A stretch of DNA of 64,000 nt, taken from positions 20,789 to 84,788 of the forward strand of contig JAFQRA010000015.1 in assembly GCA_017410325.1 (NCBI GenBank). Reading direction: 5' to 3'. The DNA is from Clostridia bacterium. GTDB taxonomy: Bacteria; Bacillota; Clostridia; Oscillospirales; Acutalibacteraceae. Shown piece by piece: positions 9,272 through 23,710 of the stretch. The notes under the pieces are model-generated. The model was not told where the DNA came from, ran no database searches, and saw only the letters and a list, made by a program, of their open reading frames with translations. Each line of letters begins with the position of its first letter. Position 1 is the first letter of the stretch. The translations under genes were made by a program, and so were the position numbers.

Positions 9272-9342
9272 GTAGGGGAGGCGTTTCGCCTCCCGTTGGA
9301 TGTATGTAGCATTAACAACGGGAGGGGTGACCCCTCCCCTAC
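9272..9342. repeat. 71-bp inverted-repeat element, GTAGGGG family, copy 2
   Basis: Ends are GTAGGGGAGG and CCTCCCCTAC, with inner hairpins GGGAGGCG-TTTCGCCTCCC and GGGAGGGGTGACCCCTCCC. The architecture and length are nearly the same as copy 1, 25 bp away, but the internal bases differ, which indicates two related elements rather than one duplication. It ends 23 bases before the deoB start. Confidence 0.65.
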
Positions 9343-19734: not shown

Positions 19735-20724
19735 ATGGAAAAATATTCGCTCGGATTTGATATAGGCGGTACGAAATGTGCCGTTATACTCGGCAGGGGG
19801 GAAATACCCGAAAATCCGACAAACGGATTTATAGTTGATAAAATCCGCTTTGAAACAAGGCAGAAAAGAGGTTGGCGGGAAATTACCGAAGAGCTCTTAT
19901 CCTGTGCTGAAAACATACTTGAAAGAAACTCTGTCAGGCCGGAGCAGGTTATCGGCTGCGGTATAAGCTGCGGCGGTCCTCTTGACAGCAGAAAAGGCGT
20001 GATAATGTGTCCGCCCAATCTTCCCGATTGGGATAACGTACCGCTTGTTGAAATGACGGAAAAAAGGCTCGGAATTAAAGCTTTCCTGCAGAATGATGCG
20101 AATGCCTGTGCGGTTGCGGAATGGAAATTCGGAGCAGGCAGAGGCACGCGCAATATGGTTTTTCTTACCTTCGGCACGGGTATGGGTGCCGGCCTTATTC
20201 TTGACGGCAGGCTGTACAGCGGCACCAACGATATGGCGGGCGAGGTCGGCCATATACGGATTGCACCCGACGGACCCGAGGGATATGGCAAAAAAGGCTC
20301 GTTTGAAGGCTACTGCAGCGGCGGCGGTATAGCAAGGCTGGCAAAAAGCATAGCCGAAAAAAAGCTTGACGAAGGCGTTGAGATGTCCTTTTGCAAGGAT
20401 AAATCGGAGCTTGATTCAATTACCGCAAAATCCGTTGCTCTGGCGGCTGCCGAAGGCGATGAAACAGCAAAGGAAATTTACGGTATATGCGGTGAGCATC
20501 TCGGCAAGGGCCTTGCCGTTATAATTGATATATTAAATCCCGAGGCAATAGTTATAGGCAGTATTTACGAGCGGTCATCGGTCTTGCTCAGGGAAAGAAT
20601 GCAGGAAACGGTTGAAAAAGAGGCGCTTTCTCTCTCCTGCGGTGTCTGCCGTATTCTGCCTGCCGAATTGGGCGACTCAATAGGCGATTTTGCAGCCCTC
20701 GGAGTTGCTTTTATGAACGAATAA
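19735..20724 (+). CDS. ROK family sugar kinase-like protein
   Basis: A 329-residue protein with the ROK fold: phosphate-1 motif LGFDIGGTKCAVIL, then GISCGGPLDSRKGVI, the catalytic FLQNDANACAVAEW and LTFGTGMGAGLIL. The zinc-binding CxCGxxGC motif of most ROK kinases is absent; at that position it reads KKGSFEGYCSGGG, with only one Cys. It should phosphorylate a sugar, but this substitution makes the substrate hard to predict. It is followed after 19 bases by a SIS-domain protein, so the two probably act on the same phosphosugar. Confidence 0.88.
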   Translation: MEKYSLGFDIGGTKCAVILGRGEIPENPTNGFIVDKIRFETRQKRGWREITEELLSCAENILERNSVRPEQVIGCGISCGGPLDSRKGVIMCPPNLPDWDNVPLVEMTEKRLGIKAFLQNDANACAVAEWKFGAGRGTRNMVFLTFGTGMGAGLILDGRLYSGTNDMAGEVGHIRIAPDGPEGYGKKGSFEGYCSGGGIARLAKSIAEKKLDEGVEMSFCKDKSELDSITAKSVALAAAEGDETAKEIYGICGEHLGKGLAVIIDILNPEAIVIGSIYERSSVLLRERMQETVEKEALSLSCGVCRILPAELGDSIGDFAALGVAFMNE

Positions 20725-20743
20725 AAACAAAAGGATGATAAAT

Positions 20744-21361
20744 ATGACTTCATTACAGATATTCGAAGAACTGTTAATGCGCTTTCCCGTTCTTGAAAGC
20801 TGCAAGGACGATATATACGCTTCGTATAAATTGCTTAAAGCTTGCTATGAAAAGGACGGCAAGGTGCTCGTGTGCGGCAACGGCGGAAGCGCGGCAGATG
20901 CCGACCACATCGTAGGCGAGCTTATGAAGGGCTTTCTGCTTAAGAGAAGGATTGAAAAGCCTGCGGCCGACGGTGACGATGAAATACTTTCACGCCTTCA
21001 GGGTGCGTTGCCTGCAATTTCGCTCAACGCTCATTCTGCGTTGCTTTCCGCTTTTGCAAACGACCTTGAATTTGACTGTGCCTACGCTCAGCAGGTTTAC
21101 GGCTATGCCCGTGAAAACGACGTGCTGATAGCTCTGAGCACATCGGGTAATTCAAAGAGCGTTGTCAACGCCGTGCGTGCCGCCTCTGCCGCGGGAATTG
21201 CAAGCATCGGCATAACGGGCGAAAGACAAAGCACGATGAGCGAAAAATGTACAGTCTGTATAAATTTACCCGAAACCGAAACCTTTAAAATCCAGGAGCT
21301 CACCTTGCCCGTTTACCATTGTCTTTGCGCAATGCTTGAAGCGGACTTCTTTGAAAATTAA
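20744..21361 (+). CDS. SIS-domain phosphosugar isomerase (GmhA-like)
   Basis: A 205-residue SIS protein. CGNGGSAADADHIVGELMKGF (about 46-66) is the hallmark of the phosphoheptose isomerase/DiaA group, and ALSTSGNSKSVVNA is the second phosphosugar-binding loop. The acidic ADGDDEILSRLQG insertion also occurs in relatives. It probably isomerises a phosphosugar made by the ROK kinase upstream, although a regulatory role is possible. The start is set at 20744 because AAGGAT lies 9 bases upstream; an in-frame ATG at 20735 overlaps that site. Confidence 0.87.
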   Translation: MTSLQIFEELLMRFPVLESCKDDIYASYKLLKACYEKDGKVLVCGNGGSAADADHIVGELMKGFLLKRRIEKPAADGDDEILSRLQGALPAISLNAHSALLSAFANDLEFDCAYAQQVYGYARENDVLIALSTSGNSKSVVNAVRAASAAGIASIGITGERQSTMSEKCTVCINLPETETFKIQELTLPVYHCLCAMLEADFFEN

Positions 21362-21398
21362 GTTTAGTTCAGCACGGCTGTGCTGACGGACAAGCAAG

Positions 21399-21427
21399 TA
21401 ATAAATTTTCACCTCCCGACATATCTA
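21399..21427 (+). promoter_or_regulatory. SigE-like promoter of spoIIID, inside a hairpin
   Basis: TAATAAA (21399-21405), 14 bp, CATATCTA (21420-21427). The SigE-like site before spoIVFA reads TAATATC-N14-CATATTTA, so two expected mother-cell genes share the arrangement. A start near 21434 would leave out the 5' arm of the hairpin at 21412-21450. Confidence 0.45.
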
Positions 21428-21460
21428 TTTAGCGATATGAATTCGGGAGGAATGTTTTTT
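21412..21460 (+). promoter_or_regulatory. Hairpin masking the spoIIID ribosome binding site
   Basis: CCTCCCGACATATC (21412-21425) pairs with GATATG (21434-21439) and TCGGGAGG (21443-21450), giving stems of 6 and 8 bp separated by an AAT bulge. The 3' arm is the spoIIID Shine-Dalgarno sequence itself, and TTTTTT follows at 21455-21460. In readthrough RNA from the upstream operon it should hide the ribosome site or end transcription. Confidence 0.65.
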
Positions 21461-21710
21461 GAGATGCATAGTTGAAGAAAGGGCGGTTGAGCTGGGCCGC
21501 TATATAGTTGAAAACGGTGCAACCGTACGCACGGCGGCAAAGCAGTTCGGCATAAGCAAATCCACGGTACATACGGATGTTTCGCGCAGACTTGCAAAGC
21601 TCAACCCCTTGCTTTTTGAAGAGGTGAGGGCTGTGCTTGACGTGAACAAGGCACAGCGGCACATCAGAGGAGGTCTTGCAACAAAGGAAAAATACAAATC
21701 TGCTCAATAA
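21459..21710 (+). CDS. spoIIID: SpoIIID, mother-cell sporulation transcription factor
   Basis: A small DNA-binding regulator of the mother cell that acts after SigE and before SigK. The 83 residues match SpoIIID throughout: IVEERAVELGRYIVENGATV, the helix-turn-helix AAKQFGISKSTVHTDVSRRL (about 28-47), INPxL-like LNPLLFEEV and the basic HIRGGLATKEKYK end. The start is a TTG at 21459, 8 bases after GGGAGG; the nearby ATG at 21464 is in another frame. The ribosome site is in a hairpin, and a SigE-like promoter overlaps its 5' arm. Confidence 0.97.
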   Translation: MRCIVEERAVELGRYIVENGATVRTAAKQFGISKSTVHTDVSRRLAKLNPLLFEEVRAVLDVNKAQRHIRGGLATKEKYKSAQ

Positions 21711-21735
21711 AATTTTATTTATTTTTGTAAAATAC

Positions 21736-21764
21736 TTGCAGTTTATGGAGAAGTTATTTATAAT
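21736..21764 (+). promoter_or_regulatory. Promoter of the hprK operon
   Basis: -35 TTGCAG (21736-21741), 17-bp spacer, perfect -10 TATAAT (21759-21764), 31 bases before the hprK start. Confidence 0.8.
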
Positions 21765-21795
21765 ATATCAAAAAGTTTTATTGGTGGGATGTTAA

Positions 21796-22719
21796 ATGGC
21801 TTCTAAGTATTCCGTTTCGCTTAAGCGGATAATAGATGAACACGGCTTCAGCGTTGTTTATTCTCCGTGCGACCCCGGCGAAATTGATGTCACGATGCAG
21901 GAGGTTATCCGTCCCGGTTTTATTCTTACCGGTTATGACGATTATTTTGATGCCGGCAGAGTTCAGTTCCTCGGCCTTACGGAAATCGAATATCTGCGCA
22001 GTCTTTCCGACGAGGTAAGGGCGCAAAGGCTCGATTTTTACCTTTCTCACAAGCCTGTCGTGTGCATAGTCACGCGTTCGCTTGAAATGCCGAAGGAATT
22101 TCTTCCCCTTGCCGAAAAGTACGGCGTTCCCGTTCTTTCCACAAAGGATTCAACTTCTGCCTGTATGTCGGCAATTATTTCTTTCCTCGGCGTTCAGCTT
22201 GCTCCCCGTATCACCCGTCACGGCGTTCTTGTCGAGGTGTACGGCGAGGGTGTGCTCATCCTCGGCGACAGCGGCGTCGGTAAGAGTGAAACGGCGCTTG
22301 AGCTTATCAAGCGCGGTCACCGTCTTATTGCGGACGATGCGGTTGAAATCCGCAAGGTTTCGTCCCGCACGCTTGTCGGCTCCGCTCCCGACAATATCCG
22401 TCACTTTATCGAGGTGCGCGGTGTCGGTATCATAAACGCACAGCGTATTTTCGGTATGGGCTCCGTAAAGCTTACGGAAAAAATTGATATGGTTGTTGAG
22501 CTTGAGCCCTGGGACAGCGAAAAGGCTTACGAACGCCTGGGACTGGACGAAAAGTATACCGAAATTCTCGGTATTGATGTTCCCAGCCACGTTGTTCCCG
22601 TTCACCCCGGCAGAAACCTTTCCGTTATTATCGAGGCGGCGGCTATGAACAACCGCCAGAAAAAGCTCGGCTACAACGCGGCCCGTGAGCTTCTCAACGG
22701 ATTAGGTATGGAAGAATGA
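21796..22719 (+). CDS. hprK: HPr kinase/phosphorylase
   Basis: Phosphorylates and dephosphorylates Ser46 of HPr, the switch for carbon catabolite repression in Firmicutes. The 307-residue protein has an N-terminal domain (1-130), then the P-loop GDSGVGKSE (about 156-164), the HRLIADDAVEI segment and the family signature EVRGVGIINAQRIFG. The C-terminal VPVHPGRNLSVIIEAAAMNN is also present. All catalytic elements are present and the length is standard. It leads a plus-strand cluster with glucokinase, murB, whiA and dnaE. In many relatives rapZ and yvcK would lie between hprK/murB and whiA; neither is found here. Confidence 0.98.
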   Translation: MASKYSVSLKRIIDEHGFSVVYSPCDPGEIDVTMQEVIRPGFILTGYDDYFDAGRVQFLGLTEIEYLRSLSDEVRAQRLDFYLSHKPVVCIVTRSLEMPKEFLPLAEKYGVPVLSTKDSTSACMSAIISFLGVQLAPRITRHGVLVEVYGEGVLILGDSGVGKSETALELIKRGHRLIADDAVEIRKVSSRTLVGSAPDNIRHFIEVRGVGIINAQRIFGMGSVKLTEKIDMVVELEPWDSEKAYERLGLDEKYTEILGIDVPSHVVPVHPGRNLSVIIEAAAMNNRQKKLGYNAARELLNGLGMEE

Positions 22720-22759
22720 AATATTTAATTGAAGTTTAATAAATCGGAGGTAACAAATT

Positions 22760-23710
22760 ATGTACAGAATCGGCGTAGATCTCGGCGGCACAAATATTGC
22801 AGTAGGTGTTGTTGACAAGAATTTCAACATCATCGGCCGAGGCAAAATGAAGACAAATGCACCCCGTCCGGCAAAGGCGATATTTGACGATATTGCTACC
22901 GCCATCAGAATGGCTGTTTCCGATGCTGAAATCACACTTGACGAGGTTAAGTCCATCGGTATAGGTACACCCGGCTCGGTAAACAAGGCAGAGGGTATCA
23001 TTGATTTTGCAAATAACCTTGATTTCGACCACGTTCCCGCCAAGGAACTGCTTTCCGAAAACCTCGGTACGGATAAAATCTATATTGATAACGACGCCAA
23101 CTGTGCAGCCCTCGGCGAAGCTCTCGCAGGCGCAGGCAAGGGCAAGGACAGCTTTGTTGCAATCACACTCGGTACGGGTGTAGGCAGCGGTATCGTTATC
23201 GACGGCAAGCTTGTAGTCGGCTGTAACTATGCCGCAGGCGAAATGGGACACATGGTTATCGCTATGGACGGCGAGCAGTGCAACTGCGGCAGAAGAGGCT
23301 GCTGGGAAAGATATGCTTCCGCAACAGCTCTTATTGCACAGACGAAGGATGCTATGAAAAAGAATGTTGACAGCATAATGTGGGAGCTTGTTGACGATAA
23401 TATAGCAAAGGTCAGCGGAAGAACAGCCTTCGATGCAATGCGCAAGGGCGATGCTGCCGCAAAGCAGGTTGTAGACAACTACATCCGCTACATTGCAGTA
23501 GGCCTTGTAAACGTTATCAACGCACTTCAGCCCGATATGATTTGTATCGGCGGCGGTATCAGCCACGAGAAGGATAATCTTCTTGTTCCCATCCGCAAGC
23601 ACATCAACCGTGGCAGATACAGCATCTATTCAGAAAAGCAGACCGAAATCTGCTGTGCAACACTCGGTAACGATGCAGGTATCATCGGTGCTGCAATGCT
23701 TGACAACTAA
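22760..23710 (+). CDS. ROK family glucokinase
   Basis: A 316-residue ATP-dependent glucokinase of the ROK family, feeding glycolysis. It contains IGVDLGGTNIAVGVV (ATP phosphate loop), GIGTPGSVNKAEG, the catalytic IDNDANCAALGE and LGTGVGSGIVIDGK. The complete zinc site QCNCGRRGCWERYAS (about 173-187) contrasts with the ROK protein at 19735, which lacks it. A good AAATCGGAGG site precedes the ATG. Its place next to hprK and one operon away from pfkA fits sugar uptake control and glycolysis. Glucose specificity is inferred from the motif and context. Confidence 0.93.
   Translation: MYRIGVDLGGTNIAVGVVDKNFNIIGRGKMKTNAPRPAKAIFDDIATAIRMAVSDAEITLDEVKSIGIGTPGSVNKAEGIIDFANNLDFDHVPAKELLSENLGTDKIYIDNDANCAALGEALAGAGKGKDSFVAITLGTGVGSGIVIDGKLVVGCNYAAGEMGHMVIAMDGEQCNCGRRGCWERYASATALIAQTKDAMKKNVDSIMWELVDDNIAKVSGRTAFDAMRKGDAAAKQVVDNYIRYIAVGLVNVINALQPDMICIGGGISHEKDNLLVPIRKHINRGRYSIYSEKQTEICCATLGNDAGIIGAAMLDN

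Follow-up and report, generated by a model that had tools for sequence, protein, structure and literature searches.

A hairpin nested in a sigma-E-type promoter hides the spoIIID ribosome binding site in predicted read-through RNA and probably insulates the gene in Clostridia

Introduction

Hairpins that hide a Shine-Dalgarno (SD) sequence are known from bacteriophage T4, where they are described for gene e, soc, 49, I-TevI and relatives and are established for gene e and for homing endonucleases, and for e and I-TevI a late promoter lies within the region of the hairpin's 5' strand (PMC3014915 and PMC2988022, in their accessible parts). In these T4 systems RNA started upstream folds and is poorly translated; the promoter region encodes the 5' strand, and a transcript begun at the late promoter of the gene itself is without this 5' portion and is translated. 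A related arrangement was proposed for sigG of Bacillus subtilis, where a hairpin of 20+ pairs, which read-through RNA forms but transcripts begun at the sigG promoter do not, would block read-through from spoIIG (Masuda 1988, as cited in the accessible part of PMC5942855). Translation of B. subtilis spoIIID is itself limited in its RNA leader and requires a small upstream gene, usd (Decatur et al. 1997, as cited in the accessible part of PMC4474612). The principle of hiding a ribosome site in one transcript is therefore known, from T4 gene e and B. subtilis sigG.

Here we describe a hairpin of this kind in front of clostridial spoIIID. Two features of T4 gene e are found in the spoIIID sequence, an SD that would be sequestered in upstream-started RNA and a promoter that encodes the 5' strand, and a short RNA without that strand is predicted likewise, so by analogy the spoIIID hairpin would work as that of gene e does. 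The T4 hairpins belong to a phage and serve temporal control within one infection, whereas spoIIID belongs to a developmental programme of the cell itself and is controlled by a sigma factor of the mother cell; unlike in T4, the strength of the spoIIID hairpin tracks the direction of the neighbouring gene and T-rich tails are frequent. The sigG case shares with spoIIID a sporulation gene and a hairpin confined to read-through RNA, but as described in that source it concerns sigma factors F and G and one locus, whereas the spoIIID promoter is of the sigma-E type and hairpins with covarying arms are found across Clostridia, at spoIIID and at other sigma-E-like genes. The usd-spoIIID system concerns the same gene and, as we propose here, a limit on translation set in the leader; in B. 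subtilis the sigma-E RNA carries the upstream ORF that is needed, whereas the clostridial sigma-E transcript is expected to begin beyond the 5' arm and to need none. Intrinsic terminators resemble the hairpin of the genus studied here in their GC-rich stem and T-rich tail, but in spoIIID the 3' arm is the SD, the tail ends in the start codon, and most leader hairpins have no tail.

Our literature search, outside which most subscription journals lie, found no clostridial spoIIID hairpin, no account of its spread and no neighbour rule, and the spoIIID leader was not found in the accessible part of PMC7438776, on C. difficile start sites. What is new is the occurrence at spoIIID, the spread, the covarying arms and the dependence on the neighbour.

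Results

The spoIIID locus

The window, the whole stretch of 64,000 nucleotides that was analysed, comes from a clostridial genome of 2.67 Mb and carries spoIIID on the + strand (21459..21710), as are all features of the locus given below. The gene encodes 83 aa from a TTG start and was identified by alignment to TIGR02844 at 111.6 bits against a cut-off of 111.5. It is preceded in the same direction by a ROK-family kinase gene (19735..20724), which opens the upstream transcription unit, and by a phosphoheptose-isomerase-like SIS-domain gene (20735..21361), the final gene ahead of the promoter; in profile searches both fell under the curated cut-offs (ROK_glcA_fam, 4.8e-50; GmhA-like, 1.1e-35). 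The SIS stop (21361) and the spoIIID start are 97 bases apart, and a promoter and terminator scan of positions 20000-23000 listed no + strand terminator between them; an inverted repeat, CAGCAC/GTGCTG, at 21370-21385 lacks a T-run. The ROK-SIS unit is co-directional with spoIIID and terminator-free before the promoter, which matches the sigG type of read-through setting. No Rfam riboswitch or leader family matched above its gathering score in the window.

A sigma-E-type promoter stands in this gap, with AATAAA at -35 (21400..21405; TAATAAA at 21399-21405 was confirmed by letters, with the conserved ATA at 21401-21403) and CATATCTA at -10 (21420..21427). RNA folding predicts a hairpin over 21412-21450 that joins the spacer and -10 of this promoter to the SD of spoIIID. 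Its 5' arm, CCTCCCGACATATC (21412..21425), pairs with a 3' arm (21434..21450) made of GATATG (21434-21439), a 3-nt bulge and TCGGGAGG (21443-21450), giving 14 pairs around an 8-nt loop. The SD, GGGAGG (21445..21450), ends the 3' arm 8 nt before the TTG start. Six T (21455..21460) begin 4 nt past the SD arm; they form a terminator-like tail and also the spacer from SD to start, and the final two belong to the TTG codon (21459-21461). The first-pass annotation had placed the hairpin, the SD and the six T letter for letter at these positions. From the promoter geometry, transcription would be expected to start within 21431..21436.

The computed folding energy of the hairpin is -20.5 kcal/mol; shuffled sequences average -8.3 (z -5.14), none of 200 being equally stable, and with wider flanks z is -3.55, with 0/200 shuffles as stable. 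As a background from the same genome, 233 other SD-bearing ORF starts were drawn from the window and 300 kb in fifteen 20-kb stretches. Their mean duplex between upstream arm and leader was -7.9 (sd 3.8), and a duplex as strong (-21.9) was found at one of them, an in-frame start inside hprK that is not the true start of hprK. By plain folding energy over bases -60 to +12, 14/233 were equally stable. The simple terminator scan of 20000-23000, which knew only sigma-70 consensus promoters, missed the hairpin, presumably because of the bulge. Within the genus, pairing was seen in 10/10 genomes that have spoIIID, counting the genome of the window, and an 11th genome gave no match; three of the ten show the pairing in another form, in which the outer helix is longer and the inner CATATC/GATATG helix is missing.

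Accessibility was computed for RNAs with different 5' ends. In RNA from 20735, 21300 or 21405, all holding the 5' arm, the SD is predicted to be unpaired with a probability of 0.000-0.008 per base, and the earlier suggestion that read-through RNA folds shut is borne out at this level. For predicted starts at 21428, 21431, 21434 and 21436 the value rises to 0.10-0.48, depending on start site and base. For the companion suggestion, that RNA from the promoter keeps the ribosome site free, the prediction is mixed: the SD is freer than in long RNA but only partly open, and it would still pair in part with the T-run. The TTG start is mostly paired in the predicted short RNA, being unpaired at 0.05-0.23 there and at 0.09-0.76 in the long RNA. 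Over 170 leaders the mean unpaired probability of the SD is 0.24 in long versus 0.54 in short RNA, and the SD is freer in the short RNA in 146 of them.

Conservation of the promoter

SpoIIID was searched in 97 related genomes, of which 79 matched. The 5' part of the gene was located in 77/82 loci, and these 77 leaders were aligned by an iterated position-weight matrix. The matrix has a -35 of (c/a)ATAa and a -10 of gCATAtaaaT, 19 bases from the ATA, which we take to be the sigma-E consensus; the CATA bases each reach 0.94-0.98, and CATA lies ~39 bases ahead of the start in many leaders. Scores of at least 10 were obtained for 68/77 leaders, the same leaders on which the matrix was trained. Because the window site fits the matrix at the strongly conserved positions, the promoter appears real by conservation, and its use and its start point are predicted. 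An earlier reading of a SigE-like promoter whose -10 lies in the 5' arm is supported by the relatives with one refinement, in that the first six of the eight -10 bases are in the arm and the last two in the loop.

Upstream of the promoter, GGACAAG (21388..21394), which we take to resemble the SpoIIID binding site consensus, starts 13 bases before the -35 ATA. The same offset occurs in 9/172 loci overall and in 6/10 leaders of the genus, and this placement suggests that in this genus SpoIIID acts on its own promoter. B. subtilis SpoIIID acts on its own promoter. For spoIIIAA, a sigma-E gene in B. subtilis, a site matching the matrix was found near the start in 13/30 loci. In six spoIIIAA promoters GGACAAG stands between -35 and -10, which would fit repression by SpoIIID. 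Seven other loci have long leaders with an SD-like GGGGGAA site ~30-35 bases before the ATG and, by eye, an inverted repeat between the two.

In some relatives the gene itself is interrupted. In six genomes spoIIID is split near codons 35-43 (the TVH of the HTH), and it is also split in four others. Both halves were found in 6/97 genomes and one half only in two; in five of the six a single contig carries both halves, with 3-28 kb between them, and in the sixth they lie on two contigs. A large serine-recombinase-like ORF abuts the 3' half in 7/7 fetched stretches, and the one such ORF that was tested matched Resolvase, Recombinase and Zn_ribbon_recom. In 4/6 a stretch of 6-12 bases around TACAT(A) is common to the two split ends; in the other two it is so only with a mismatch. 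This looks like a skin-like excisable element; we found no excisable element in spoIIID in the literature searched, which included the accessible part of PMC5595907.

Pairing across genomes

We performed a swap test in which the segment of locus i (spacer and -10) was folded with the leader of locus j, with 20000 permutations and the tree not modelled. Three sets of loci were used. The first holds 55 genus representatives, being the 77 leaders minus nine with low promoter scores, nine from the genus of the window and four other genus duplicates; the second holds 67 loci with public titles, from 80 minus eight duplicates and five low scores; the third holds 37 class or phylum loci, from 57 (taken from the best 30 of 111 and the best 30 of 129 matching genomes) minus twenty that were low-scoring, duplicate or too short. 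Identity of the leader was the criterion for removing duplicates, so the sets may still contain close relatives of one another. In each set a promoter segment pairs better with its own leader than with those of others: -9.48 versus -6.15 swapped (sd 0.36, z -9.4), -11.19 versus -5.15 (sd 0.34, z -17.7) and -7.70 versus -4.42 (sd 0.42, z -7.8), with 0/20000 permutations in all three.

A second comparison holds composition constant by shuffling the spacer letters and keeping the -10 and the leader. At p<=0.05 stood 17/59 loci of the relatives set (which here retains the four other genus duplicates), 33/67 of the titled and 17/37 of the class and phylum loci, a total of 67/163 where ~8 are expected. 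Because 96/163 miss p<=0.05, the hairpin is common and not universal. The loci's own spacer also outpairs its reversal in 39/59, 53/65 and 27/37 untied loci (119/161).

The same tests were applied to other sporulation genes, taking 30 loci per family. A sigma-E site near the chosen start was missing for spoIID and for most spoIVA loci, so the control sets are small, with 3 usable loci for spoIID, 6 for spoIVA and 13 for spoIIIAA. In the shuffle test 3/13 spoIIIAA, 3/6 spoIVA and 1/3 spoIID loci reach p<=0.05; the pairing is therefore not special to spoIIID, and spoIVA and spoIIIAA are not clean negative controls. Among the nearest relatives the excess of spoIIID over spoIIIAA by this test is small (17/59 vs 3/13). 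The swap test gave z -1.7 and -1.9 for spoIIIAA (994 and 669 of 20000), -3.6 and -3.2 for spoIVA, and -1.0 and 0.1 for spoIID. Three spoIVA leaders with a nearby sigma-E promoter, each from a different genome, pair their promoter with their leader at p 0.025, 0.0 and 0.02.

The letters of the arm differ from genome to genome (ACCCCTCAGAACGCTT in L276, CCCCTGTGC in L024, CCCGTGTGAGAG in L224), and each matches its own leader. In an alignable group of six close relatives 92.7% of cells pair, against 37.5-57.3% with slid partners; two pairs changed on both sides, and 17/500 shuffles reach the score, a modest covariation. The hairpins of a mixed group of 15 loci use different registers, for which reason a count of structure by alignment column was dropped there and only the six alike loci were counted. 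Conservation and covariation in relatives had been named by the first-pass annotation as a check on its reading, and there the pairing is retained while the letters change; it appears to be maintained by selection as they drift.

Dependence on the upstream gene

The nearest upstream ORF was assigned for 161 loci, in genomes that are mostly from uncultured organisms, with ORFs and terminators called by simple rules and not taken from annotation. The 100 loci with a co-directional upstream ORF have a mean duplex of -17.3 kcal/mol, and 52 of them show p<=0.05; for the 54 loci with an opposite upstream ORF the figures are -11.6 and 14 (Mann-Whitney 6.5e-9 for the duplex energies), and of 7 loci where no upstream ORF was found 1 shows p<=0.05. 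Among the co-directional loci p<=0.05 was reached by 47/78 without a terminator-like hairpin in between versus 5/22 with one. Hairpins are thus commoner behind co-directional, terminator-free neighbours, as a block to read-through predicts.

The energy difference has the same direction in the three sets (p 0.0024, 2e-5 and 0.0065), persists when SpoIIID clusters are collapsed at 75, 80 and 90% identity (7e-4, 1e-5 and 1e-6) and remains at 1e-8 after regression on GC. Scored as yes or no, the dependence on the neighbour is less marked in the individual sets (Fisher 0.042, 0.068 and 0.27; pooled 0.002), and the 14/54 opposite-neighbour loci have the hairpin regardless. In clusters with both neighbour types the co-directional loci are stronger in 3/5, 5/6 and 2/3. 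The proteins encoded upstream of the strongest loci, judged by eye with no family search, include SIS, Upp-like, ATPase, M23 peptidase and membrane proteins. Because these look dissimilar, the hairpin does not seem to travel with one neighbour; rather, it appears to have persisted or to have formed anew as the neighbours changed.

Other genes of the same genome

The whole genome was searched with two patterns combining a sigma-E site with GAGG, which gave 13 and 5 matches against 6 and 3 for reversed-pattern controls. An ORF follows 11/18 of the matches, spoIIID among them. With a co-directional upstream ORF 3/6 pattern loci show p<=0.05 (spoIIID, L373 and L375) and another, L374, stands at 0.053; with an opposite upstream ORF 1/5 does so, at a 40-aa ORF (L379). 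Two of these loci appear to be further sigma-E-like genes built like spoIIID. At C17:26476-26513 (L306, L375) a polysaccharide deacetylase gene (PF01522) stands behind a promoter-nested hairpin (-29.9, z -7.8) that is followed by T7 and then ATG, and the -35 starts 5 bases past a small co-directional ORF that itself follows ireB; L306:6522, one of the 233 other starts, has a duplex of -18.3 and the full design. At C16:43732 (L373) the genes behind the hairpin encode a TIGR04086 membrane protein and then a SpoIIM-like protein (26 bits, under the cut-off), and the -35 starts 4 bases after yajC of a co-directional tgt-yajC pair. This hairpin has 16 pairs, and T6 and then an ATG in frame come after it; the true start is ambiguous, because a longer ORF call begins at an ATG inside the stem.

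A bare CCTCC...GGAGG pattern occurs 79 times per strand in the genome, against 73 for the reversed-pattern control. About half of the 15 loci examined among the matches listed are intergenic repeats, and beyond spoIIID a sizeable ORF stands behind GGAGG in only two of these 15 (L086 and L087). On the minus strand of L086 (G000:C7:118552) a lipoprotein-like ORF has its SD paired in a hairpin that contains TATAAT, and this may be a sigma-A counterpart of the promoter-nested hairpin. A GC-rich intergenic repeat, TAGGGGAGG..CCTCCC..GGGAGG..CCTCCCCTA, is found at 9289-9325 of the window and in three other loci; it is dispersed in the genome, with some copies close to contig ends.

Discussion

We propose, at a probability of roughly four in five, that the hairpin is an insulator against read-through into spoIIID. 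In the sequence this reading is founded on the hairpin, the conservation of the promoter, the covarying arms and the dependence on neighbour direction, which together would point to selection on the pairing; the start of transcription, the read-through, the block to translation or termination, and the purpose we infer. The complement of the SD lies within the sigma-E-type promoter, between the -35 and the end of the -10. RNA entering from the ROK-SIS unit would carry both arms, and the hairpin would bury the SD before a ribosome could use it, so that read-through RNA would be left untranslated or would be ended at the T-run, a T-rich stretch in this genus. Sigma-E polymerase would start its RNA a few bases past the 5' arm; this RNA would lack the arm and could be translated, and SpoIIID would be made only upon firing of its own promoter in the mother cell. 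The pairing would be selected despite drift of its letters, and it is strongest where the neighbour points into spoIIID. The parts of the earlier read-through-block reading that can be tested on sequence are supported, and the hairpin probably serves to keep growing cells from making SpoIIID.

An appreciable but lesser chance attaches to the hairpin being chiefly the intrinsic terminator of the upstream operon, with the SD in its 3' arm for lack of space; the block would then act through ended transcription and not through a hidden SD. The first-pass annotation had already named termination as an alternative, and it should be taken seriously, since throughout the genus a T-rich stretch stands between the SD arm and the start codon. 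In the window the hairpin and the six T have the layout of an intrinsic terminator at the sequence level. Among leader hairpins 33/134 are followed by 8 nt of which 5 or more are T, the count of T in 9 is 4.36 for the 66 loci with significant hairpins versus 2.92 for 63 loci (p 3.6e-4), and hairpins are commoner where a separate upstream terminator is lacking. Against this, 101/134 leader hairpins lack such a tail, among them four of the strongest (L057, L024, L040 and L059), and a T-rich stretch also serves simply as the spacer from SD to start. A terminator is compatible with the insulator reading, and termination may share the block with the hiding of the SD.

Translational coupling in the manner of usd-spoIIID, in which ribosomes finishing the upstream gene would melt the hairpin and read-through RNA would be translated, is improbable here. 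The B. subtilis precedent speaks for it, as do several loci whose upstream stop codon lies in or beside the -35 (gap -6 to 3), but in the window 50 nt separate the SIS stop from the 5' arm, and a terminating ribosome cannot reach a hairpin arm that far past the stop. Nor does the expected sigma-E leader of ~25 nt hold, by eye, a usd-like ORF with an SD of its own: of its two ATGs, that at 21437 is preceded by no SD within this transcript, and that at 21452 has GGGAGG only one base before it; the ORF is 12 codons long. Coupling would also have no need for a sigma-E promoter inside the 5' arm.

It is very unlikely that the arms act as an inverted repeat in the DNA to which a regulator binds: they do span the spacer and -10, a usual place for a repressor, but from one genus to another their letters vary and only the complementarity to the leader persists, whereas a bound site would retain its letters, a repressor site does not predict dependence on neighbour direction, and the likely regulator box, GGACAAG, sits outside the hairpin. 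Equally slight is the chance of a by-product of composition, a purine-rich SD facing a pyrimidine-rich promoter spacer. In its favour, the spacer is C-rich in the leader matrix, composition accounts for part of the swap result, to judge by the weaker outcome of the shuffle test, and spoIIIAA reaches 3/13 in the latter; the excess in composition-preserving shuffles, the advantage over reversed spacers and the survival of the neighbour effect after GC regression all stand against it.

The insulator reading may extend to a general clostridial class of sigma-E promoters that hold the complement of their own SD between -35 and -10, often with a terminator tail, and that are gained, lost or rebuilt as neighbours change, so that the choice of start site alone would decide whether an RNA can be translated; spoIIID would be a common bearer, beside several other sporulation genes per genome. 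We regard the existence of such a class as an even call.

If the insulator reading is true, it would explain how a small but potent developmental regulator escapes leaky expression although a housekeeping operon lies immediately upstream of it, and such leak-free placement behind operons is a question for every gene-dense genome. The arrangement would be a compact insulator, with promoter, lock and perhaps terminator within ~60 bases. Its mark is computable, a promoter arm complementary to the SD whose strength follows neighbour direction, and could be used to find tightly kept stage-specific genes; the hairpin would also strengthen the case for sigma-E promoters in spore formers that are uncultured. 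RNA-seq coverage of such a gene during growth would then not necessarily mean expression.
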